From Rubrivivax sp. (lineage in GTDB: Bacteria > Pseudomonadota > Gammaproteobacteria > Burkholderiales > Burkholderiaceae_C): a stretch of 42,087 nt of DNA. A program made the translations under genes and the position numbers. Positions 5,937 to 42,087 of this stretch are shown in pieces; position 1 is the first letter of the stretch, and the number at the start of each line of letters is the position of its first letter. Location of the stretch: the NCBI GenBank assembly GCA_016790425.1, contig JAEUPF010000067.1, positions 1 through 42,087 on the forward strand, given 5' to 3'. A model generated the notes under the pieces. The model was not told the origin of the DNA and did not search any database. It worked only from the letters and a program-made list of their open reading frames with translations.

Positions 5937-7436
5937 TCACGCCCGGGCCGCCGCGGCGCGGCTGCGGCCGAGCAGTCGCCGCAGCAGCGGCCAGAACCAC
6001 ACGACGAGCGTCAGCGCGCCCAGAGCGCCGGCGATCGGCCGCTCGAAGAAGGCGGCGACGCTGCCGTCGGCCTTCACCAGGCTGGCGAAGAAGTTCTCCT
6101 CGAGCATCGTGCCGAGCACCACGCCCAGGATCGTCGGCGCGATCGGGAAGCCGAAGCGCTCCATGAAGAACGCCACCACGCCGGCCACGAGCATGATGAC
6201 GACGCCGAAGGCGGTGTTGTTGATCGCGAAGCTGCCGACGACGCAGAAGAGCAGGATCAGCGGCATCAGCACCGAACCCGGGATGCGCAGCAGCTGCTTG
6301 GCCGCCTTGATGGCCGCCCAGCCGAGCGGCAGCATCAGCAGCTGCGCCAGGATGAAGACGATGAAGACGGCGTAGATGTTCTGCGGGTTGTGCACGAACA
6401 GCGTCGGGCCCGGGTTCATGTTCTTCAGGTACAGCACGCCGATGGCGATGGCGGTGATCGAGTCGCCCGGGATGCCGAACACGAGCGCCGGGATCCAGGC
6501 GCCGCCGAGCGCGGAGTTGTTCGCCGCGCCCGACTCGACGATGCCCTCGACATGCCCGGTGCCGAACTTCTCCGGCTCCTTGGAGAACTTCTTCGACATC
6601 GCATACGACATCCACGCCGCGATGTCGGCACCGGCGCCGGGCAGCGCGCCGATCGCCGTGCCGAGCGCCGATCCGCGCAGGAGCTGCACGGGGTACTTCT
6701 TCAGCAGCGCCCACATGCCGGCGAAGACGTTGCCGAACGGCCGTTCCACCACCATCACCGCGCGCTCGCTGGCCAGGCTGTAGCGCAGCACCTCGGAGAT
6801 CGCGAACATGCCGATCATCAGCGGGATCATCGAGATGCCGCCGGTCAGCTCGGCGTTGCCGAAGGTGTAGCGCGGCGCGCCGGCCGGGTTGTCCAGCCCG
6901 ACGCAGGAAACGAGCAGGCCCAGCAGCAGCGAGACGATCGCCTTCAGTGGGTCGCTGCCGGCGATGAACACGGCGCACGACAACCCCAGCAGCACGAGCC
7001 AGAAATACTCGAACGAGCTGAACTTCAGCGCCACCTCGGCCAGCGCCGGCGCGGCGACGATCAGCACCAGCACGCCGAAGATGCCGCCCCGCACCGAGAA
7101 CACCAGCCCCGAGCCGAGCGCGAGCTCGGGCCGGCCGCTGCGGGTGATGAGGTAGGCCTCGTCGGTGTAGGCGGCGCTGGCGGGCGTGCCCGGCATGCGC
7201 AGCAGCGCGCTGGGGATGTCGCCGCTGAAGATGGCCATCGCCGTGGCGGTGACGATCGCCGCCACCGCCGGCACCGGCGGCATGAAGAACGTCACCGGCA
7301 CCAGCAGCGCCGTGGCCATCGTCGCCGTCAGGCCGGGGATGGCGCCGACGAAGAGGCCGAAGACCGCCGAGAAAAGGATCACCAGCAGCACGTAGGGCTC
7401 GAAGACGAGCCCGAAAGCGGTGACGACGGCATCCAT
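5937..7436 (-). CDS. tctA: Tripartite tricarboxylate transporter, large permease subunit
   Basis: A 499-residue integral membrane protein with about 12 helices, the main channel subunit of a TTT/TctCBA secondary transporter. The family signatures are present: GAIPGLTATMATALLVP near residue 32, the internal repeat motif LPGAGADIAAWMSYAMSKK, and the AANNSALGGAWIPALVFGIPG stretch. It is third in the run tctC-tctB-tctA and follows tctB by 22 bases. Transport of a tri- or dicarboxylate driven by an ion gradient is the known role; the solute is set by TctC. The 220 bases between it and galU contain no gene. Confidence 0.93.
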   Translation of the reverse strand: MDAVVTAFGLVFEPYVLLVILFSAVFGLFVGAIPGLTATMATALLVPVTFFMPPVPAVAAIVTATAMAIFSGDIPSALLRMPGTPASAAYTDEAYLITRSGRPELALGSGLVFSVRGGIFGVLVLIVAAPALAEVALKFSSFEYFWLVLLGLSCAVFIAGSDPLKAIVSLLLGLLVSCVGLDNPAGAPRYTFGNAELTGGISMIPLMIGMFAISEVLRYSLASERAVMVVERPFGNVFAGMWALLKKYPVQLLRGSALGTAIGALPGAGADIAAWMSYAMSKKFSKEPEKFGTGHVEGIVESGAANNSALGGAWIPALVFGIPGDSITAIAIGVLYLKNMNPGPTLFVHNPQNIYAVFIVFILAQLLMLPLGWAAIKAAKQLLRIPGSVLMPLILLFCVVGSFAINNTAFGVVIMLVAGVVAFFMERFGFPIAPTILGVVLGTMLEENFFASLVKADGSVAAFFERPIAGALGALTLVVWFWPLLRRLLGRSRAAAARA

Positions 7437-30652: not shown

Positions 30653-31996
30653 ATGCCCCCGCTGCCGTCCCCTGCCCCGTCTCCTGCTGCGTCCGAATCC
30701 GGCCCGCTGACCCGCCTGCTGGCACGCCCCGGCGCGGGCGACGCGAACGCCGACGAGCCGGCCGGCAAGCCGTTCGCGCACCTGTCGTACTGCGTGCGCT
30801 GCTGCATTCCGCAGACGCAGGAAGGCGTCGTCTTCGACGAGCTGGGCGTCTGCCAGGCCTGCCAGAGCGCCGAGCAGAAGATCCACATCGACTGGACCCA
30901 GCGCGAGCGGGCGCTGCGCAAGATCCTCGACGACGCCAAGGCCAGGGCCGGCAGCAACTACGACTGCATCATCCCGATCTCCGGCGGCAAGGACAGCACG
31001 TTCCAGCTGCACGTGCTGACCAAGGTCTACGGCATGAAGCCGCTGGCCGTGACCTTCAGCCACAACTGGTTCAGCGAGACCGGTTGGTACAACCTGATGA
31101 ACTCGCTCGAGCAGTTCGACGTGGACCACATCATGTTCACGCCGAACCGGAAGCTCGTGAACAAGCTGGCGCGGCACTCGCTGTTCGGCATCGGCGACGC
31201 CTGCTGGCACTGCCACGCCGGCGTCGGCGCCTTCCCGCTGCAGGTGGCGGTGCGCTTCAACATCCCGCTCCTGATCTGGGGCGAGAGCATCGCCGAGAGT
31301 TCGGGGCGCGCGAGCTACCTCAACCCGGTGCGCAAGTTCGACCGCGAGTACTTCACCAAGGTCAGCGCCAAGCTGCGCCCCGACCAGATGGTGCGCAAGG
31401 CGGAGGAATTCGGCGCCGACTGGGCCGTGACCGAGAAGGACCTGGAACCGTTCAACGTGCCCAGCGCCGAGGACTGCGAGCGCGTCGGCGTGTTCGGCAT
31501 CCACCTGGGCGACTACCTCTTCTGGGACGACGAGCGCCAGACCGAGTTCGTGCGCGACAACTACGGCTGGCGCGAGACGCAGGTCGAAGGCAGCTTCAAG
31601 CGCTACAAGAGCGCCGAGTGCGTGATGCCGGGCGTGCACGACCTCGCCTGCTACCTCAAGCGCGGCTACGGCCGGGCGACCTTCCACGCCAGCGTCGACG
31701 TGCGTGCCGGGCTGCTGAGCCGCGACGAGGCCTTCGAGCTGATTCGCGAGCATGACGCGGTGCGCCCCGAGGGCCTGGACCACTACCTGAAGATCACCGG
31801 CCTCAGCGAAGCCGAGTTCTTCGCCGCGCTGGAGAAGCAGCGCCGGCCCGAGCTGCAAGGCAAGGTCATCCCGATCTACGAGAAGAAGGCGCCCAACGAG
31901 GAGCGGCTGCTGCCCTACCCGCAGCAGCTCATCGAGAAGATGCGCGCCGCCGACGCGAAGGCCGCGAGCCCGCTCGCCAGCGAGGCTTCGGCATGA
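30653..31996 (+). CDS. N-acetyl sugar amidotransferase (WbpG/PseA/WbuX family)
   Basis: A 447-residue ATP-pyrophosphatase-type enzyme. Family members convert a sugar N-acetyl group to acetamidino, using ATP and ammonia, on nucleotide sugars for LPS or flagellin glycans. A zinc-ribbon-like cysteine set (C47, C50, C67, C70) is followed by the PP-loop ISGGKDSTFQLH (from residue 109), the SHNWFSETG segment, CWHCHAGVGAFPL and the C-terminal LKRGYGRATFH pattern. It is longer than the usual 370-380 through a Pro/Ala-rich N-terminus. GGAG eight bases upstream fixes the ATG at 30653. The partners normally supplying ammonia (HisH/HisF-like) are absent. Its stop overlaps the amidase start (ATGA). Confidence 0.9.
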   Translation: MPPLPSPAPSPAASESGPLTRLLARPGAGDANADEPAGKPFAHLSYCVRCCIPQTQEGVVFDELGVCQACQSAEQKIHIDWTQRERALRKILDDAKARAGSNYDCIIPISGGKDSTFQLHVLTKVYGMKPLAVTFSHNWFSETGWYNLMNSLEQFDVDHIMFTPNRKLVNKLARHSLFGIGDACWHCHAGVGAFPLQVAVRFNIPLLIWGESIAESSGRASYLNPVRKFDREYFTKVSAKLRPDQMVRKAEEFGADWAVTEKDLEPFNVPSAEDCERVGVFGIHLGDYLFWDDERQTEFVRDNYGWRETQVEGSFKRYKSAECVMPGVHDLACYLKRGYGRATFHASVDVRAGLLSRDEAFELIREHDAVRPEGLDHYLKITGLSEAEFFAALEKQRRPELQGKVIPIYEKKAPNEERLLPYPQQLIEKMRAADAKAASPLASEASA

Positions 31997-33501
31997 GCGG
32001 CGCAGCCGTCGACTTCCGCCGCCACGGCGTGCGCGAGCTGCTGGCCGGCTATGCCGCGGGCCGCTTCACGCCGCACGACGCGGCCAAGGCCTGCGCCGCT
32101 GCGGTGCAGGCGCAGGAGGCCGCTGTGCACGCCTGGGTCGCCTTCGACGCCGACCGCCTGTCGAGCGCCGCGCAGGCGAGCGCTGCGCGCATCGCGCGCG
32201 GCGAGCCGCTGCGCCTGCTCGAAGGCGTGCCGGTCGCGGTGAAGGACATCTTCAACACCGCCGATTTCCCCACGCAAATGGGCAGTGCGCTGTGGGCCGG
32301 CTTCACGCCGGGCAACGATGCGCGCGCCGTCTTCCACCTGAAGCGCGCCGGCGCCTTGCTGCCGGGCAAGACGGTGACGGCCGAGTTCGCCGTGCACACG
32401 CTGGGCAAGACGATCAACCCCTGGGCGAGCGAGCGCACGCCCGGCACCAGTTCCAGCGGCAGCGCCGTCGCCGTGGCCACCGGCATGGTGCCGGTCGCCC
32501 TGGGCACGCAGACGGCCGGCAGCATCGTGCGCCCGGCCAGCTTCACCGGCACCTGGGGCATGAAGCCGAGCTTCGGCCTGATTCCGCGCACCGGCATGCT
32601 GAAGACGACCGACAGCCTGGACACGGTGGGCTTCTTCGTCGGCCATGCCGCCGACCTCGGCACCGTGCTCGACGCCTTGCGCGTGCACGGGCGCGACTAC
32701 CCGATCAGCGACGCCGCGTTCAACGATCGCGCGCGCCAGGCGGCCCCGGCCGAGCGCAGCACCGCAGCGAGCGCACGACCGTGGCGCGTGGCGCTGCTGC
32801 GCCCTTCGGTGTGGTCGCACGCGCCGGGCTACGCGCGCCAGGCGATCGAAGGCTGGTGCTGGCTGGCGCGGCGCACGCTCGGCGCGCGCATCGAGATCGT
32901 CGAGCCCGAACTGCCGTGGGAGCTCACCGAGTGCCACCGCGTCCACGCCACCATCTACAACCGGGCGCTGGCGTACTACTTCCAGGCCGAGCACGAACGC
33001 GCCGAGCTGGTGTCGCCGGTGATGAACGCACTCATCGAGGCGGGCAGGCGCATCACGCCGGCCGAGTACGAAGCGGCGCTGGCGCGCCAGGTCGAGCTCG
33101 CCCGCACGGCCGAACGCTTCATGCGCGGCTTCGATGTCGCGGTGACGCTCGCCACGGCCGGCGAAGCACCGCTGCGGCACGTCGAGGAAGCGCCGGACTC
33201 GGCGCTGATGTGGACGCTGGCGCAGCTGCCGGCCATCAGCGCGCCGGTGTTCCGCTCGCCGCGCGGCCTGCCGTTCGGGCTGCAGCTGGTGGCGCGGCGC
33301 TACAACGACCCGCTCCTGCTGAAGTTCGTCGCCGAAGCGGTGGCCGCGGGCTTGCTGCCGGCCACGTCGTACGCACAGGCCTACGGCGGCGCGGCGACGC
33401 CGGCGCCGGCGGTGGGCGTGCCGGCGGCGTTCGAAGTCCACTGTGCCGCAGGCGCGGCGGCTCTTGGCGCCGGGCAGTCGGCCGGCGAGGTTGCGGCATG
33501 A
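31993..33501 (+). CDS. Amidase-signature family enzyme
   Basis: A 502-residue hydrolase of the GatA/FAAH family. The Ser-cisSer-Lys triad is intact by motif: K84 in VAVKDIF, S153 in GTSSSGSA and nucleophile S177 in TQTAGSIVRPAS, with the expected 24 residues between the serines. It would release ammonia from, or deacylate, an amide. The start is read from GAGG seven bases before an ATG overlapping the previous stop. The next gene has a nearly identical junction (GAGG, seven bases, ATGA). Its place inside a sugar operon directly after the amidotransferase suggests it supplies ammonia, by analogy with GatA; alternatively it hydrolyses an amide on the sugar. Neither is proven. Confidence 0.88.
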   Translation: MSGAAVDFRRHGVRELLAGYAAGRFTPHDAAKACAAAVQAQEAAVHAWVAFDADRLSSAAQASAARIARGEPLRLLEGVPVAVKDIFNTADFPTQMGSALWAGFTPGNDARAVFHLKRAGALLPGKTVTAEFAVHTLGKTINPWASERTPGTSSSGSAVAVATGMVPVALGTQTAGSIVRPASFTGTWGMKPSFGLIPRTGMLKTTDSLDTVGFFVGHAADLGTVLDALRVHGRDYPISDAAFNDRARQAAPAERSTAASARPWRVALLRPSVWSHAPGYARQAIEGWCWLARRTLGARIEIVEPELPWELTECHRVHATIYNRALAYYFQAEHERAELVSPVMNALIEAGRRITPAEYEAALARQVELARTAERFMRGFDVAVTLATAGEAPLRHVEEAPDSALMWTLAQLPAISAPVFRSPRGLPFGLQLVARRYNDPLLLKFVAEAVAAGLLPATSYAQAYGGAATPAPAVGVPAAFEVHCAAGAAALGAGQSAGEVAA

Positions 33502-34604
33502 ACCTGCAGCAGCTGCGCGTGCTGATCGTCGGCTGCGGCAACATCGCCGGCGGCTTCGACGCCGAGCGGCCGGCGAGCGCGCTGCCGCTGACGCACGCCG
33601 GCGCCTACGTCCGCCACGGCGGCTTCCGCCTCGTCGCCTGCGTCGAGCCGGAGGCCCAGCGGCGCGATGCCTTCATGCAGCGATGGCTGGTCGAGAAGGG
33701 CTATCCGAGCATCGAGACGGCCGCGGCAGCAGGGCCATTCGACGTCGTGAGCCTGTGCTCGCCGACGCCGCTGCACGCGGCGCACATCGCGGCGGCGCTG
33801 TCGCTGCACCCGCGGCTCATCTTCTGCGAGAAGCCGGTCACCCGCTGCGCTGCCGACACCGCCGCCGCGGTGCACGTCTGCGCCGCCGCCGGCGTCAAGC
33901 TCGCCGTCAACCACAACCGCCGCTGGGCACCGGACATCCAGCGCCTCAGCGCCGAGCTGCGAGCGGGCCACTGGGGCGCCGTGCGCTCGGCCATCGGCAT
34001 CTACAACAAGGGCGTGCTGAACAACGGCACGCACCTGGTGGACCTGGTGCAGCTGCTGCTCGGGCCGCTGGAACTGCTGGCCGCCGCAGCCCCGCTCTTC
34101 GACCACTGGCCCGACGACCCCACGGTGCCGGCGCTGCTGCGCACGCAGCAAGGGGTGCCGGTGACGCTGAACGCGGCCCACGCGGCCGACTACGCCGTCT
34201 TCGAGCTGCAGCTGTTCACCGAGCGCGGCATGGTGGCGATGGAAGACGGCGGCGCCGGCTGGCGCGTGCGCCGTGTCGTCGCCAGCCCCCACTTCAAAGG
34301 TTATGCCGTGCTCGACGCCGGCCAGCGCACGGCCGGCGAGTACCTCGCCAGCACGCTGGCCGCGGTGGGCAACGTGCACGACGCGCTGACGCGCGGCACG
34401 GCGCTGGCCAGCACCGGCGAGACGGCGCTGGCGGCGCAGCGCCTGTGCGAGCGGATCAGCCGCACGGCGCGCGCCTTGCCGATGGACGACGACTTCAACA
34501 GCACGCTGAGCCCGGCCACCACGCTGAGCGGCGCCTTCGCCAGCACGCGTTCGCCGGCCTTGCTGCCGACGCTCACCGAGCGCGTGCCTTCGACATCGCA
34601 CTGA
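33498..34604 (+). CDS. Gfo/Idh/MocA-family sugar dehydrogenase
   Basis: A 368-residue NAD(P)-dependent oxidoreductase. It has the nucleotide-binding GCGNIAGGFD (from residue 12), CEKPVTRCAAD with the family EKP motif, and a C-terminal alpha/beta domain with NHNRRWAPD and the NNGTHLVDL histidine segment. In WbpB-type pathways such enzymes oxidise a nucleotide-sugar hydroxyl (often C3) to a ketone for the following aminotransferase, which fits the next gene. The ATG overlaps the amidase stop as ATGA. Confidence 0.88.
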   Translation: MNLQQLRVLIVGCGNIAGGFDAERPASALPLTHAGAYVRHGGFRLVACVEPEAQRRDAFMQRWLVEKGYPSIETAAAAGPFDVVSLCSPTPLHAAHIAAALSLHPRLIFCEKPVTRCAADTAAAVHVCAAAGVKLAVNHNRRWAPDIQRLSAELRAGHWGAVRSAIGIYNKGVLNNGTHLVDLVQLLLGPLELLAAAAPLFDHWPDDPTVPALLRTQQGVPVTLNAAHAADYAVFELQLFTERGMVAMEDGGAGWRVRRVVASPHFKGYAVLDAGQRTAGEYLASTLAAVGNVHDALTRGTALASTGETALAAQRLCERISRTARALPMDDDFNSTLSPATTLSGAFASTRSPALLPTLTERVPSTSH

Positions 34605-34616
34605 CCGGACGCCGAC

Positions 34617-35945
34617 ATGACGCAAGACCGGACTTCCGTCCCCCTGGCTCTCTTCGGCGGCCCGCCGACGATCGAGCGGCCGCTGCCGCCGCCGGCGACG
34701 ATGGGCGAGGACGACGTTGCCGCGGCGAGCGAAGTCATCCGCAGCGGCGTGCTATCGGGCTACATCGGCGCCCCCGGCGACGCGTTCATGGGCGGCCCGC
34801 GCGTGCGCGCCTTCGAGGCGCAGGCGGCCGAGTACTTCGGCGTCAGGCACGCCATCGCCGTCAACTCGTGGACCTCGGGCCTGGTGGCCGCCGTCGGCGC
34901 CATCGGCATCGAGCCCGGCGACGAGATCATCACCACGCCGTGGACGATGGCGGCCACCGCCACGGCCATCGTGCACTGGTGCGGCATCCCGGTCTTCGCC
35001 GACATCGACCGCGAGACCTTCAACATCGACCCGGCCTCGGTCGAGCGGCTCATCGGCCGGCGCACGCGGGCGGTCATCGCGGTGGACATCTTCGGCCAGA
35101 GCGCCGACATGACGGCGCTGCGCGACATCTGCCGCCGCCACGGCCTGAAGCTGCTCGGCGACTGCGCGCAGGCGCCCGGCGCCAAGGTGTTCGACCGCAT
35201 GGCCGGCACGCTGGCCGACATCGGCGGCTACAGCCTGAACTACCACAAGCACATCCACTGCGGCGAAGGCGGCGTCCTCGTCACCGACGACGACCGTCAT
35301 GCCAGGCGCCTGGCGCTGATCCGCAACCACGCCGAGGCCGTCGTGCACAGCGAGCGGCCGGCGGACCTGGCCAACATGCTCGGCTTCAATTTCCGCATGG
35401 GCGAGATCGAGGCGGCCATCGCCTCGGTGCAGCTGGGCAAGCTGGCGCCGCGCGTGGCCGCGCGGCAGCGCGCCGCGGCGCAGCTCGATGCGGGCCTTTC
35501 GGACCTGCCGGGGCTGAAGACGCCGCGCGTCGCCGTGGGCAACACGCACGCCTACTACATCTACGGCCTGCAGCTCGACGTGGCCGCGCTCGGCGTGCCG
35601 CGCGAACGCGTCGTGCGGGCGCTGCAGGCCGAAGGCGTGAGCGGCATCGTCGGCAGCTACCAGAACCTGCACCTGCTGCCGATGTTCCGCCACAAGGTGG
35701 CCTACGGCACCGGCGGCTTCCCATGGGCGAGCCCCTACTGCGAGCGCACCATCCACTACGGCCCCGGCCTGTGCCCGGTGGCCGAGGAGCTGCACGCGCG
35801 CACCTTCCTCGGCCTGGCGCTCGGGCAGTTCGCGCACGGGCCGGAAGCGATCGGCCAGGTCGTCGCCGCGTTCCGCAAGGTCTGGGGCCAGCTCGACCGC
35901 CTGCGCGCCGAGGCGCGGCATCGCGGCGAACCCTGTCCGGCATGA
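34617..35945 (+). CDS. DegT/DnrJ/EryC1/StrS-family sugar aminotransferase
   Basis: A 442-residue PLP enzyme transaminating a keto-sugar. It has the PLP lysine K211 in SLNYHKHIHCGEGG, the GDCAQAPGA aspartate segment (D182), TPWTMAATATAIVHWCGIPVFADID and FNFRMGEIEAAIASVQL. It is longer than typical sugar aminotransferases (about 370), mostly at the N-terminus (FGGPPTIERPLPPP) and C-terminus, like the AHBA/StsC subgroup. A 12-bp gap from the dehydrogenase and an ATGA overlap with the acetyltransferase place it in the operon. The dehydrogenase-aminotransferase-acetyltransferase order matches routes to acetamido sugars. Confidence 0.92.
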   Translation: MTQDRTSVPLALFGGPPTIERPLPPPATMGEDDVAAASEVIRSGVLSGYIGAPGDAFMGGPRVRAFEAQAAEYFGVRHAIAVNSWTSGLVAAVGAIGIEPGDEIITTPWTMAATATAIVHWCGIPVFADIDRETFNIDPASVERLIGRRTRAVIAVDIFGQSADMTALRDICRRHGLKLLGDCAQAPGAKVFDRMAGTLADIGGYSLNYHKHIHCGEGGVLVTDDDRHARRLALIRNHAEAVVHSERPADLANMLGFNFRMGEIEAAIASVQLGKLAPRVAARQRAAAQLDAGLSDLPGLKTPRVAVGNTHAYYIYGLQLDVAALGVPRERVVRALQAEGVSGIVGSYQNLHLLPMFRHKVAYGTGGFPWASPYCERTIHYGPGLCPVAEELHARTFLGLALGQFAHGPEAIGQVVAAFRKVWGQLDRLRAEARHRGEPCPA

Positions 35946-36613
35946 CGAGGATGCCGCCGGCGACGCCGGCCTTGGTCGTGAACGCGGCGTCGCCGCTGCC
36001 GATGCCGGCGACGCCGCTGCCTGCCCTGCTGCAAGGCGCCCGCGTGCGCCTGCGGCCCTTCACCGCCGCCGACATCACCGACACGTACGTCTCGTGGCTC
36101 AACGACCCCGAGGTCGTGCGCTACAGCAACCAGCGCTTCGTCCGCCACACACGCGCCAGTTGCCACCGCTACTTCGAGGGCTTCGCCGCCGGCAGCCCGA
36201 ACCTGTTCGCCAGCCTGCGCGTCGCCAAGGCCGACGCCAGCGAGCGCGGCGAGATCCCGGTGGGCACGCTCACCGCCTACCGCTCGCTGCAGCATGGCAC
36301 CGCCGACGTCGGCATCCTGCTCGGCGAGCGCACCGTGTGGGGCCAAGGCATCGGCCTGGAGGCCTGGCAGCTGCTCACCGACTGGCTGCTGACGACGCCG
36401 GGCCTGCGCAAGGTGACCGCCGGCACGCTCGCCTGCAACGCGGCGATGCTGGCGGTGGCCGAGCGCTCGGGCATGCGGCGCGAAGGCGTGCGCGTCGCGC
36501 AGGAAGTCGTCGCCGGCGTGCCGACCGACATCGTGCACTTCGCGCGCTTTGCGCCGGCGCCGGCGCCGGCATCGGCGCTGCCGCCGCGCCTGCCTTGCGG
36601 CCCCGCGGCATGA
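35942..36613 (+). CDS. GNAT-family N-acetyltransferase
   Basis: A 223-residue acetyltransferase of the RimJ/RimL-like group. Residues about 30-205 hold VRLRPFTAADITDTYVSWLN, the acetyl-CoA motif LLGERTVWGQGIGLEAWQL and AGTLACNAAMLAVAERSGM. Many such proteins in surface-glycan clusters acetylate an amino sugar (PseH-like). Following an aminotransferase, that is the most likely job here. It starts at ATG 35942 inside the aminotransferase stop; ATG 35951 is an alternative with GAGG directly before it. The tail is Ala/Pro-rich. Confidence 0.85.
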   Translation: MTRMPPATPALVVNAASPLPMPATPLPALLQGARVRLRPFTAADITDTYVSWLNDPEVVRYSNQRFVRHTRASCHRYFEGFAAGSPNLFASLRVAKADASERGEIPVGTLTAYRSLQHGTADVGILLGERTVWGQGIGLEAWQLLTDWLLTTPGLRKVTAGTLACNAAMLAVAERSGMRREGVRVAQEVVAGVPTDIVHFARFAPAPAPASALPPRLPCGPAA

Positions 36614-37551
36614 CGCCCGCACTGCGCACGCCGCTGGCGGTGGTGTGCCACGACGCGGGCGCCTGCAACGTCATCCTGCCCTGGTTGCGCCGGCCCGGCC
36701 TGAGCCTGCGCCCGGTGATGGGCGGCCCGGCAGCGCGCCTGTTCGAGGCGGCTGGCAACCATGGCTCGCACCCCGTGGCGGCGGCGCCGGACGAAGCGGC
36801 GCTGGCCGAAGCACTCGACGGCGCGGCAATGCTGCTCAGCGGCACCGGCTGGGCGAGCGACCTCGAGCACCGCGCCCGCCTTCTCGCCCGCGAGCGCGGC
36901 ATCTTCTGCGCTGCGGTGATCGACCATTGGGTCAACTACGGCATGCGCTTCGAACGCGGGGGCCAGACGGTGTGGCCCGACGAGTTCTGGGTCACCGACG
37001 AGCACGCGCTGGCGATCGCCCGCCGCACCTTCCCCGGCGGCGTCGTGCGCTGCCTCGACAACCTCTACCTGCGCGCCGAAGTCGCCGCGATCGCGCCGTT
37101 GCCGCGCGCTGCGCGCGTGCTGGTGGCGCTGGAGCCGGCGCGCAGCGACTGGGGCCGCGGCAGGCCCGGCGAGTTCCAGGCGCTCGACCACTTCATGCGC
37201 GAGCGCGTCGCCGCGGGCATCGCCGCCGAAGTGCCCGTGCGCCTCAGGCCGCATCCTTCCGACGAGGCAGGCAAGTTCGACCACTGGCTCGCCGTGCAGC
37301 GCGAGCGCGGCGCCGATGTCTCGCTCGACCGCCACGCCACGCTCGCCGCGGCCATCGGTGCCAGCACCTGCGTCGTCGGCTGCGAGTCGATGGCGCTCGT
37401 CGTCGCCCTCGGCGCCGGCCGCCGCGTGCTCTGCTCGTTGCCGCCCTGGGCGCCGCCTTGCCGGCTGCCGCACGAAGGCATCGCGCGGCTGGGCACCGCC
37501 GGTGCCGCCGTCGCGCAGTCCGGCCCCGCCAAACTGCAGCCTGTCGGATGA
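36610..37551 (+). CDS. GT-B-like protein of the sugar cluster, function unassigned
   Basis: A 313-residue cytoplasmic protein with no family I can name. The first half reads as a Rossmann-like domain (VVCHDAGACNVILPWLRRPG; WVNYGMRFERGGQTVWPDEFWV). The second half has RLRPHPSDEAGKFDHW and CVVGCESMALVVALGAGRRVL. This layout, histidine-proline then GxxS near an alpha helix, is what GT-B glycosyltransferases and UDP-sugar hydrolases such as PseG show at their donor site. It is coupled to the acetyltransferase by an ATGA overlap and ends the operon. A role in transferring or freeing the modified sugar is inferred. Confidence 0.72.
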   Translation: MTPALRTPLAVVCHDAGACNVILPWLRRPGLSLRPVMGGPAARLFEAAGNHGSHPVAAAPDEAALAEALDGAAMLLSGTGWASDLEHRARLLARERGIFCAAVIDHWVNYGMRFERGGQTVWPDEFWVTDEHALAIARRTFPGGVVRCLDNLYLRAEVAAIAPLPRAARVLVALEPARSDWGRGRPGEFQALDHFMRERVAAGIAAEVPVRLRPHPSDEAGKFDHWLAVQRERGADVSLDRHATLAAAIGASTCVVGCESMALVVALGAGRRVLCSLPPWAPPCRLPHEGIARLGTAGAAVAQSGPAKLQPVG

Positions 37552-39325: not shown

Positions 39326-40171
39326 TCACGCCGCCTGCCGCAGCGCCGGGGCGGCGATGAAGCGCTCGCGCACGGCCGCGAACGCCTGCATGTACTCGGG
39401 CCAGCGCGTGTCGCGCCAGGCACGCTTGAGCGCATCGCTGATGAACGCCTCGTGCGGGTGCTCGCGAAAGCGCGCCGTGCTCCAGCCGAAGCCGAAGGGG
39501 TCGTGCGGCACGCTGCGCCAATGCGGTTGCGTGGCCAGCAGCAGCGAGGCGGCGCGCTCCATCAGGAACACCTTGCGCTGCGCGCCGCCGGCATAGCTGG
39601 TGGGCACGGTCAGCGCCCGCTTCAGCGCGCCCGGCTCGGGGCTCTCGCACGCCGCGAACAGCGCTTCGTTGAGTCCGAGCCACTCGCGCCAGAACGCCGG
39701 CCGGGCGACGAAGTAGTTCGAGAAGACGACCTGGCGCGCGTCCATCACCAGCTGGCGCAGCGGCGCCGGGCGGCCGGCCTGGGCCAGGAAGGCCTCGTAG
39801 GCCTCGATGAGCCCGGCGTCGAACGTCTCGCCTTGCTCGAACACGTTGAGGAAGAAGGCGCCCATGTCCGGCTGCGGCGAGAACAGCAGCACGTCGGCGC
39901 TTGCTGCGTGCTCGGCGACAAAGCGCAAGACCGCGGCGTGCTCCAGCCCCGTCTTGGCGGTGAACTTGGGCGAGAAGAAGCCGTAGAAGGCGCTGTAGTC
40001 GAGGCTGCCTTCGCGCTCGGCCGCCAGCAGGTGGCGGCGGATCGGCCAGTACTCGTACCAGTCGGGCCGCTCGTTCGCCCGGTTGTCGAGCACGAGCCAG
40101 CCCGGGCCGATGCTCGCTCGCGTGGCCTCGTTGTAGGCGATGAGATGCAGGTGGATCGCGGGGGCGGACAT
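39326..40171 (-). CDS. Conserved hypothetical protein
   Basis: A 281-residue soluble protein, not assigned to a named family. It is Trp/Tyr/Phe-rich with a distinctive N-terminus (HLHLIAYNE, then NERPDWYEYWPIRRHLL), FYGFFSPKF, VLLFSPQPDMGAFFLNVFEQGE and SNYFVARPAFWREWL. I recall similar proteins near glycan genes in other beta-proteobacteria, without known activity. The LIAYNE opening recalls glycosyltransferase A-fold starts, but no DxD is evident. It converges on the rhodanese gene with 15 bases between stops. Confidence 0.75.
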   Translation of the reverse strand: MSAPAIHLHLIAYNEATRASIGPGWLVLDNRANERPDWYEYWPIRRHLLAAEREGSLDYSAFYGFFSPKFTAKTGLEHAAVLRFVAEHAASADVLLFSPQPDMGAFFLNVFEQGETFDAGLIEAYEAFLAQAGRPAPLRQLVMDARQVVFSNYFVARPAFWREWLGLNEALFAACESPEPGALKRALTVPTSYAGGAQRKVFLMERAASLLLATQPHWRSVPHDPFGFGWSTARFREHPHEAFISDALKRAWRDTRWPEYMQAFAAVRERFIAAPALRQAA

Positions 40172-40353: not shown

Positions 40354-42087
40354 TCAGATCAGCGGCCCGTTGTTGCGCCAGTCGTCGTCGCTGCCATGGC
40401 GGACCGGGGCGATCGTCGCGGTGCCGGCGCTGGCCACGGCGCCGCTGCCGGCGGCCGCGCCGCTGCCGCCACCACCGCCGGGGAGCAACTCGGCCGGCGC
40501 ATCGGCGAGCAACTCACCGAGCTCGGGTGCCGGCGCCGGCTGCCGCGTGAACCACACGTCGGCCACGTCGCGCGTGGCGCCGTCGGTCGTCGTGTAGCTC
40601 GAGGTCAGGCCGAGCAGGTTGCCGTTGTTCACCGCGCTGCCGGTGGCGTGGTCGAGGCGCAGTTCCGCCACGCCCATCTCCACCAGCCCGCGCAGCTCGC
40701 CGGCATCGGTGACGCCGTCGCCGTTGGCGTCGACCCACACGCGCAGGTCGCGGAAGCGGGCGTCGCCGGCGTTGATCACGCCGTCGTGGTTGCTGTCCAG
40801 CTGCGCCAGCGCGTTGAAGCCGTTGCCCGCGCGCTGCCCGTCGGCCAGCTGCGTGGCGGCGCCGAACAGTTCGCGGCCGTCGTTGATGCGGCCGTCGCCG
40901 TTCAGGTCCATCGCCAGCAGGCCGTCGCCGCGGCCGACCCAGCCCGATTGCTGCGCCTGGCCGGTGCCGCCGAGGTCGAACTTCACGCCGTGCTCGGCGC
41001 TCACCGTCTGCACGCCGTTGCCGTCGAGGTCCAGCACGATCGGCGTCATGCTCACCAGCGCGTTGATCTGGCCGGTGGTCATCGCGGCGATGTCGGCCGT
41101 CTCGAAGGCGTGGATCTGCGTCGTCGTCATCGCGGCGATGTCGGCGGTCTCGATCGTCACCACCTGCGCCGTGGTCAGCGCCACGATCTGCGCCGTGGAC
41201 AAGGCGCGGATCTCGTCGGTGGAGAACGCGGCGATCATGTCCGTTTCCAGCGCCGCGATCTGCGCCGTCGTCAGGGCATGGATCTGCGCCGTCTCCAGCG
41301 AGTTGAACTGCGTCGTCGTCAGCGCGTTGAGGTCGGAAGTCGACAGCGCCGCGATGTCGGCGGTGGTCACCGCCACGAGCTGAGCCGTCGACAGCGACAC
41401 CAGCTGCGCGGTACCGAGCGCGTCGAACTGGGCCGTGGTGAACGCGGCGATCTGCGCCGTGGCCATGCCGGCGAGGTCGGTCGTCTCCAGAGCGGCCACA
41501 TCGGCGGTCTCCAGCGCCCGCACCTGGGCCGTGCTGAACGCGGCCACCTGCGAGCTCGTCAGCGCGGCGATGTCGGCGGTGTCGAAGGCCGCCACCTGCG
41601 CCGTGGTGAGGGCGCGGATCTGCGCGGTCGACAACGTCACCAGGTCGACCGTGTCGAGGCTCGAGATCTGCGTCGTCGTCAGGCCTGCGATCTGGCTCGT
41701 CGTCAGCGCCGCGAACTGGGCCGTGCCGAGCGCGTCGAGGTCGCTCGTGCCCAGCGCCGCGAGCTGCGCGGTGCTCATCGCGACGAGTTGCGCCGTGGTG
41801 AGATTGGCCAGCTGCGTCGTGCCGAGCGCGTCGATCTGCGCGGTGGCGAACGCGGCGATCTGCGCCGTGCCCATCGCTGCGAGGTCGGTCGTCTCGAGCG
41901 CCGCCACGTCGGCCGTTTCCAGCGCCCGCACCTGCGCGGTCGACAGCGCCACCACCTGCGACGAGGTCAGCGCCGCGACATCGGCCGTCTCCAGCGCCGC
42001 CACCTGCGCCGTGGTCAGCGCGCGCACCTGCGCTGTCGTCAGCGCCACCTGGTCAACGGTGTCGAGGCTCGCAATCTGCGTCGTCGT
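40354..42087 (-). CDS. Large octapeptide-repeat protein with C-terminal calcium-binding loops, N-terminus outside window
   Basis: The visible 577 codons are open to the right edge. The first 343 residues are an uninterrupted series of octapeptides with consensus [L/M/F]-x-T-x-[Q/D]-[V/I/L]-x-A (41059-42087). Then follow a DLDGNG loop (near 41020), an EF-hand-like DLNGDGRINDGRE (near 40890), DSNHDGVINAGD (near 40780) and DANGDGVTDAGE (near 40715). The tail is Gly/Ala-rich and ends NNGPLI. The C-terminal block resembles the end region of RTX-type secreted calcium-binding proteins, so type I secretion and a surface or adhesin role are inferred. No N-terminal signal or RTX nonapeptides are visible in this part. 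Confidence 0.88.
   Translation of the reverse strand, partial: TTTQIASLDTVDQVALTTAQVRALTTAQVAALETADVAALTSSQVVALSTAQVRALETADVAALETTDLAAMGTAQIAAFATAQIDALGTTQLANLTTAQLVAMSTAQLAALGTSDLDALGTAQFAALTTSQIAGLTTTQISSLDTVDLVTLSTAQIRALTTAQVAAFDTADIAALTSSQVAAFSTAQVRALETADVAALETTDLAGMATAQIAAFTTAQFDALGTAQLVSLSTAQLVAVTTADIAALSTSDLNALTTTQFNSLETAQIHALTTAQIAALETDMIAAFSTDEIRALSTAQIVALTTAQVVTIETADIAAMTTTQIHAFETADIAAMTTGQINALVSMTPIVLDLDGNGVQTVSAEHGVKFDLGGTGQAQQSGWVGRGDGLLAMDLNGDGRINDGRELFGAATQLADGQRAGNGFNALAQLDSNHDGVINAGDARFRDLRVWVDANGDGVTDAGELRGLVEMGVAELRLDHATGSAVNNGNLLGLTSSYTTTDGATRDVADVWFTRQPAPAPELGELLADAPAELLPGGGGGSGAAAGSGAVASAGTATIAPVRHGSDDDWRNNGPLI
41059..42087 (-). repeat. 24-bp-period coding repeat with 408-bp higher-order unit
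   Basis: 42 complete octads plus seven residues of another. They fall into a super-unit of 17 octads: one copy 42066-41659, a second 41658-41251, and a decayed third from 41250 to 41059. The seven residues at the window edge (TTTQIAS) match position 17 of the super-unit, so a further copy lies beyond the edge. Confidence 0.88.

Follow-up and report, generated by a model that had tools for sequence, protein, structure and literature searches.

An amidase-signature enzyme in the place of HisH and HisF beside one clade of WbuX-family enzymes: a possible ammonia source for N-acetyl sugar amidation

Where does an N-acetyl sugar amidotransferase (NASAT) of the WbuX family obtain its ammonia when neither HisH nor HisF is encoded beside it? 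The question is raised by a stretch of 42,087 nucleotides from Rubrivivax sp. (GCA_016790425.1, contig JAEUPF010000067.1, forward strand), which we call the window and in which a WbuX gene is followed by the gene of an amidase-signature enzyme (Table 1). The systems WbpG/HisH2/HisF2, WbuX/Y/Z and PseA with HisH/HisF use PP-loop enzymes of the same family, are encoded in glycan clusters of the same kind and have a presumed acetamidino product. In contrast to these systems, the window locus is devoid of the HisH glutaminase and the HisF channel protein and has an amidase in their place. The usual, though not universal, surroundings of WbuX are adjoining HisH and HisF genes; in a Sphingomonas locus WbuX stands in this arrangement with HisF2-type and HisH-type genes (PMC11340318), whereas no such genes adjoin it in the window. 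The available part of a study of LpNASAT describes a PP-loop enzyme that ligates ammonia to the sugar N-acetyl group, and does not name the source of this ammonia (PMC10607449).

We consider it probable, from sequence comparison, that the two proteins form a two-component NASAT in which the amidase would supply ammonia to WbuX. As expected for its family, WbuX would bind adenosine triphosphate (ATP) at the PP-loop, activate the N-acetyl group of a nonulosonate-type sugar and exchange the N-acetyl oxygen for ammonia, leaving an acetamidino group. The amidase would free ammonia from a small amide and hand it to WbuX, presumably in direct contact, and would thereby do the job that HisH and HisF do elsewhere. 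Ammonia supply is the best reading because the partner types seen beside WbuX are all of amide-hydrolysing kinds and because the amidase alone among the neighbouring genes accompanies every readable member of one WbuX clade.

The sequence-only reading of the window had proposed a WbuX-family enzyme at position 30653, an amidase with an intact Ser-cisSer-Lys triad, a 4-bp ATGA overlap between the two genes and the absence of HisH and HisF, and all four held. The WbuX protein scores 321.5 bits on TIGR03573, over the curated cut-off of 203.2, and matches the solved N-acetyl sugar amidotransferase 8wex. Both family motifs, the PP-loop SGGxDS and the tetracysteine, are found in it, and all four cysteines are kept in 14 out of 14 WbuX rows of the amidase-paired clade. 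The tetracysteine is a zinc site in LpNASAT, in which zinc was measured by inductively coupled plasma mass spectrometry, and the structural relatives of LpNASAT are headed by a sulfur transferase and TtuA (PMC10607449). TtuA is also the sole other PDB match (E 0.024, PP-loop region only).

The amidase scores 228 bits on PF01425 (cut-off 27). K84, S153 and S177 align, as counted by hand, with K62, S131 and S155, the catalytic residues of malonamidase E2 (1obi, 1ock). R180 aligns with R158 of malonamidase E2, which holds the carboxylate of its substrate; both enzymes share the triad and an Arg three residues past the nucleophile. All four residues are kept in the 15 paired amidases aligned. Among solved structures malonamidase E2, a hydrolase of malonamate, is the closest relative (a profile of the paired amidases gives 279 bits, and 203.6 for GatA, which comes next). 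Unlike the paired amidases, it does not contain the motif LKT[TA]D in the alignment. This motif is private to the paired enzymes (15/15, against 0/12 unpaired relatives), which also have GTSS in common (15/15) where the unpaired relatives have GGSS (12/12). The donor is perhaps, and this is a guess, a small amide with a carboxylate that R180 holds, whether glutamine or not.

Table 1. Coordinates of the WbuX/amidase pair, its sequence features and the neighbouring genes in the window
Feature	Position	Strand	Model or basis
WbuX/NASAT-family PP-loop N-acetyl sugar amidotransferase, 447 aa	30653-31996	+	TIGR03573
Tetracysteine C47, C50, C67, C70	30791-30862	+	alignment
PP-loop SGGKDS, residues 110-115	30980-30997	+	alignment
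Extra Cys triad, C184-W-H-C187	31202-31213	+	
Extra Cys triad, C323	31619-31621	+	
ATGA, WbuX stop/amidase start overlap, 4 bp	31993-31996	+	
Amidase-signature enzyme, 502 aa, member of paired clade	31993-33501	+	PF01425
K84, catalytic Lys	32242-32244	+	
S153, cis-Ser	32449-32451	+	
S177 nucleophile to R180	32521-32532	+	
Gfo/Idh/MocA oxidoreductase	33498-34604	+	PF01408, 52.9 bits
DegT-family sugar aminotransferase, PseC-like	34617-35945	+	PF01041, 290.7 bits
GNAT N-acetyltransferase	35942-36613	+	PF13302, 79.4 bits
Conserved 313-aa protein, often accompanies the set	36610-37551	+	without Pfam match

The sequence-only reading had also called for a search of genomes for this pair, which was run from both sides. 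The genome collection, scanned with the amidase sequence, gave 15 loci, of which 12 have a WbuX gene on the same strand immediately before the amidase; these come from Rubrivivax, Ramlibacter, Polaromonas, Massilia, a Desulfobacteraceae bin and an Ignavibacteria bin, among others. The three loci without an upstream WbuX have amidases that are only 36-39% identical. Because such a scan selects for the amidase, separate searches were made with WbuX only. They yielded four further members of the clade (G243, G427, G886 and G1224), all with the amidase in the operon, adjoining WbuX in three and separated from it by two genes in G427. In all, the amidase is found in the operon of 16 out of 16 WbuX of one supported clade, from Burkholderiales, Desulfobacteraceae and other groups, at loci where tblastn with HisH and HisF queries detects neither protein, the window included. 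In 10 of the 16 adjacent pairs an ATG of the amidase and the WbuX stop overlap by 4 bp, the start codons of the relatives being those chosen by the analyst; the amidases of L050 and L051 are truncated where the contig stops. Within the family of the Rubrivivax genome the clade WbuX is rare, occurring in 2 of 299 genomes (806 bits, the next match scoring 307), and the plasmids searched contain only amidases of 37-39% identity, in five records. That the two genes are chance neighbours was rejected, since the pair is kept across phyla and WbuX and amidase each form one clade. In G427 the genes between WbuX and amidase encode a methyltransferase and a PIG-L de-N-acetylase (L116, 2320-3881, minus strand), and in L163 (159-1979, plus strand) the amidase is preceded by a WbuX that carries about 240 additional N-terminal residues.

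To place the pair among other WbuX surroundings we surveyed the order first. Among its 399 genomes, 48 contain 66 WbuX over the cut-off, and HisH, HisF and amidase were sought in these 48 genomes, counting as neighbours those within 6 kb. Among the matches listed, HisH and HisF accompany 59 of the 66 WbuX, one has HisH only (among the HisF matches listed) and two, in the window and in G243, have an amidase and no HisH or HisF, these two amidase places having been chosen by eye among the matches listed. The remaining four WbuX stand directly behind an AsnB-type protein that starts with VCGIAG, MCGIAG or MCGVAG; two of these proteins were scored and reach 360 and 366 bits on TIGR01536 (cut-off 267.1). 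A phylum survey of 398 genomes added 44 further WbuX over the cut-off from 35 genomes outside the order survey. By tblastn on the fetched stretches, 33 of these have HisH and/or HisF, two an AsnB-type gene and one an amidase. The WbuX searches that gave G886 and G1224 also found WbuX outside the clade; around the 11 best-scoring of these places (L164-L174), all 12 WbuX copies are near HisH and HisF. The AsnB-type pairs resemble the amidase pairs in being a WbuX clade without adjoining HisH or HisF and with a different glutamine amidotransferase; they differ in that the partner is of the asparagine synthase type (TIGR01536) and the WbuX clade is a separate one. An AsnB-type protein was seen directly before WbuX in L065 (4973-8004), L066 (13722-16675), L067 (9014-11981), L068 (7258-10220), L125 (1630-4586) and L126 (2192-5169). 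Single-frame fusions of HisF and WbuX occur in L065 (15810-17885, 691 aa) and L066 (1367-3436, 689 aa), and contigs C26 and C35 of G386 carry the same WbuX/HisH/HisF block with equal scores, likely an assembly duplication.

The amidase partner has a single origin. A maximum-likelihood tree of 97 WbuX unites the 14 amidase-paired rows in one clade (100/100) and the six AsnB-paired rows in a separate clade (100/100), with the rows labelled HisHF scattered elsewhere; this label covers every row outside the lists of amidase, AsnB and no visible partner. Two fragments shorter than 280 aa (L042 and L104) had been dropped from the initial 99 rows, which leaves BLAST identity (58%) as the only basis for placing the Ignavibacteria WbuX. 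A second tree, made by a quick method, held 110 rows, that is the 97 rows with 14 more WbuX and without the long-branch row L070_2; here the 16 amidase-paired rows group together (support 99) and adjoin eight HisHF-paired rows (support 84). In the amidase tree 15 paired enzymes form one clade (100/99) against 19 unpaired ones, which include the strong unpaired matches among those listed in the amidase search of the 48 genomes; the misframed unpaired sequences L004 and L062 were dropped, as was L063, and L062 and L063 re-entered as L183 and L184. The extra cysteines C184, C187 and C323, in the context CWHCH or CWTCH and then EC, are complete in the 16 amidase-paired rows and in the eight HisHF-paired sister rows and in no other of the 110. 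The placement of this CxxC and third Cys after the PP-loop is much like that in iron-sulfur PP-loop enzymes such as TtuA and TtcA. As the sister clade has the same triad and yet HisH and HisF, the partner was swapped inside one WbuX subfamily, and for the same reason the triad was rejected as the cause of the amidase partnership.

Since the pair locus itself encodes no HisH, we asked how many are present elsewhere in the 16 pair genomes, a count that took HisH only. In seven of them (G243, G427, G886, G1057, G1058, G1060 and G1062) a single full-length HisH passes the cut-off, presumably the copy for histidine synthesis, and in two (G1052 and G1056) none does. With one HisH in seven genomes, the pair can persist without a second HisH of its own. 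Besides the window copy, the Rubrivivax genome encodes two more WbuX, one on contig C50 and one on C69, each beside HisH and HisF.

Several observations weigh against ammonia supply by the amidase, or against the form in which the sequence-only reading had cast it. Two or more HisH are found in seven of the 16 pair genomes, the Rubrivivax genome being one of them, and it is possible that the pair borrows HisH and HisF from histidine synthesis or, in that genome, from the two HisHF-paired WbuX. No HisF-like channel protein was seen at the pair locus, an AsnB-like gene is found near the pair in L045 and L159, and eight of the 44 WbuX of the phylum survey have no partner detectable by tblastn in the fetched stretches. 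Of these eight, five lie close to the end of a contig and three (L102, L114 and L128) do not, which indicates that some WbuX may function without an adjacent partner. The pairwise distances of WbuX and amidase are correlated over 14 pairs (Pearson 0.96, Spearman 0.95), but over 12 loci the Pearson coefficients are 0.95 for WbuX/amidase, 0.94 for WbuX/DegT and 0.94 for amidase/DegT. Because the DegT control correlates equally, we dropped this correlation as proof of co-evolution and lowered our confidence slightly; it shows that the gene set travels together and nothing further. R180 has a counterpart in 11 of the 12 unpaired amidases checked and is therefore uninformative about this pair. Finally, the amidase is no GatA: it reaches 173.8 bits on TIGR00132 against a cut-off of 481.1, whereas the true GatA of the same genome (L001) scores 533.6. 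On this GatA the KRR and LAD motifs were taken to place R334 and D418 of the yeast enzyme, the alignment there being loose, and in the 15 paired amidases the Asp column is Thr or Ser throughout while the two candidate Arg columns are without Arg in 15/15 and 13/15. R334 and D418 are the residues through which yeast GatA binds glutamine (PMC4027206). A GatA orthologue was rejected on the score and on the glutamine site, which is not kept. Of the two-component system proposed earlier, the amidase in the place of HisH and HisF is well supported on comparative grounds, and its likeness to GatA is not supported. If our reading is right, the pair is comparable to GatCAB in that a Ser-cisSer-Lys amidase is partnered with an ATP-using amidotransferase, with the difference that the partner is a PP-loop enzyme and not GatB.

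Among the alternatives, the one that fares best has the amidase acting on the sugar, by removal of an N-acyl group or hydrolysis of a nonulosonate amide, whether ahead of WbuX or behind it in the pathway, with ammonia reaching WbuX from solution or from a protein in trans; we regard it as unlikely. That the paired amidases are a clade apart, marked by LKT[TA]D, is what a new substrate would demand; malonamidase E2 is a lone hydrolase; and with a PIG-L de-N-acetylase between both genes in L116, acyl editing probably takes place in one or more of these operons. Against this, the amidase is constant while other sugar genes vary between loci, HisH and HisF occupy the same place in the sister subfamily, and only one full-length HisH is present in seven of the 16 pair genomes. 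We find it improbable that the amidase belongs to an unrelated metabolism, linked to WbuX by operon history only, and that WbuX uses free ammonia. Synthetase subunits of amidotransferases can usually accept free ammonia in vitro, and some WbuX have no visible partner; however, the single origin, the co-occurrence across phyla and the intact catalytic residues in 15/15 speak against this, and the three partner types seen beside WbuX (HisH/HisF, AsnB type and amidase) are all of amide-hydrolysing kinds. That the clade WbuX is a sulfur-inserting PP-loop enzyme whose product the amidase processes, as its Cys triad and the sulfur transferase and TtuA relatives mentioned above could suggest, is very improbable, given its score well over the TIGR03573 cut-off and the same triad in eight HisHF-paired WbuX, which points to ammonia.

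With ammonia supply by the amidase as our preferred reading, which sugar would be amidated? The sequence-only reading had named a uridine diphosphate (UDP)-N-acetyl sugar, but nonulosonate synthase and PseB genes, of the pseudaminic type, flank several loci, which makes a nonulosonate likelier. PseI is over the cut-off in L043 and L064 (496 and 509 bits) and PseB in L041 (519 bits). A NeuB/PseI-type synthase (E up to 1e-30) is present in 17 out of 17 pair genomes versus six out of 14 control genomes; it is over the PseI cut-off in three of the 17, the Rubrivivax genome not among them, and in this genome it lies on another contig, C117. In L050 the pair follows a Maf/PseD-like protein (99.7 bits against a PseD cut-off of 670, but 24.1 bits against 23.5 for the Maf N-terminal domain) and a protein judged by eye to be flagellin-like. 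The substrate is thus probably a nonulosonate and the window WbuX a PseA-like enzyme. Beside the true PseB of L041, a NeuB-type synthase (6268-7386, plus strand) is under both the PseI and the NeuB cut-offs and perhaps marks an unnamed nonulosonate branch.

If true, the pair would represent a new route by which ammonia reaches an enzyme that amidates bacterial surface sugars, through a partnership that resembles GatA/GatB and yet is not derived from that of GatA. Together with the AsnB-paired clade it would make WbuX a natural experiment in which one synthetase accepts unrelated ammonia sources. More tentatively, and with doubt outweighing belief, we suggest that the WbuX module has been fitted with three unrelated ammonia generators and that its amidase version does not handle glutamine as GatA does and may take nitrogen from another amide, which would make it a sugar amidotransferase with a donor other than glutamine. 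The pair would also mark likely acetamidino-sugar loci that searches based on HisH and HisF miss. No publication on such a pair was found by title and abstract start, a search to which most subscription papers and preprints are outside coverage.

The four other genes of the set vary in order or strand between pair loci, and G427 and G1224 lack some or all of them. Relatives of the Gfo/Idh/MocA oxidoreductase occur in 11 of the 14 pair loci compared, the window counted in. The DegT aminotransferase is below the PseC cut-off (216.7 bits on TIGR03588, against 423.5). The 313-aa protein, which finds no Pfam match even at E up to 5, has relatives in pair loci, 12 loci in all with the window included, and may be a glycosyltransferase, as judged by eye. 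Elsewhere in the window, a 281-aa protein without Pfam match (39326-40171, minus strand) has look-alikes, identified by eye, in the corresponding positions of L040 (17094-17954) and L041 (15187-16023). The window also encodes an ALTTAQ-repeat protein (40354-42087, minus strand) with 12 Pfam stretches, a possible glycosylation target; by eye, repeat proteins resembling it lie downstream in L037, L040 and L041.

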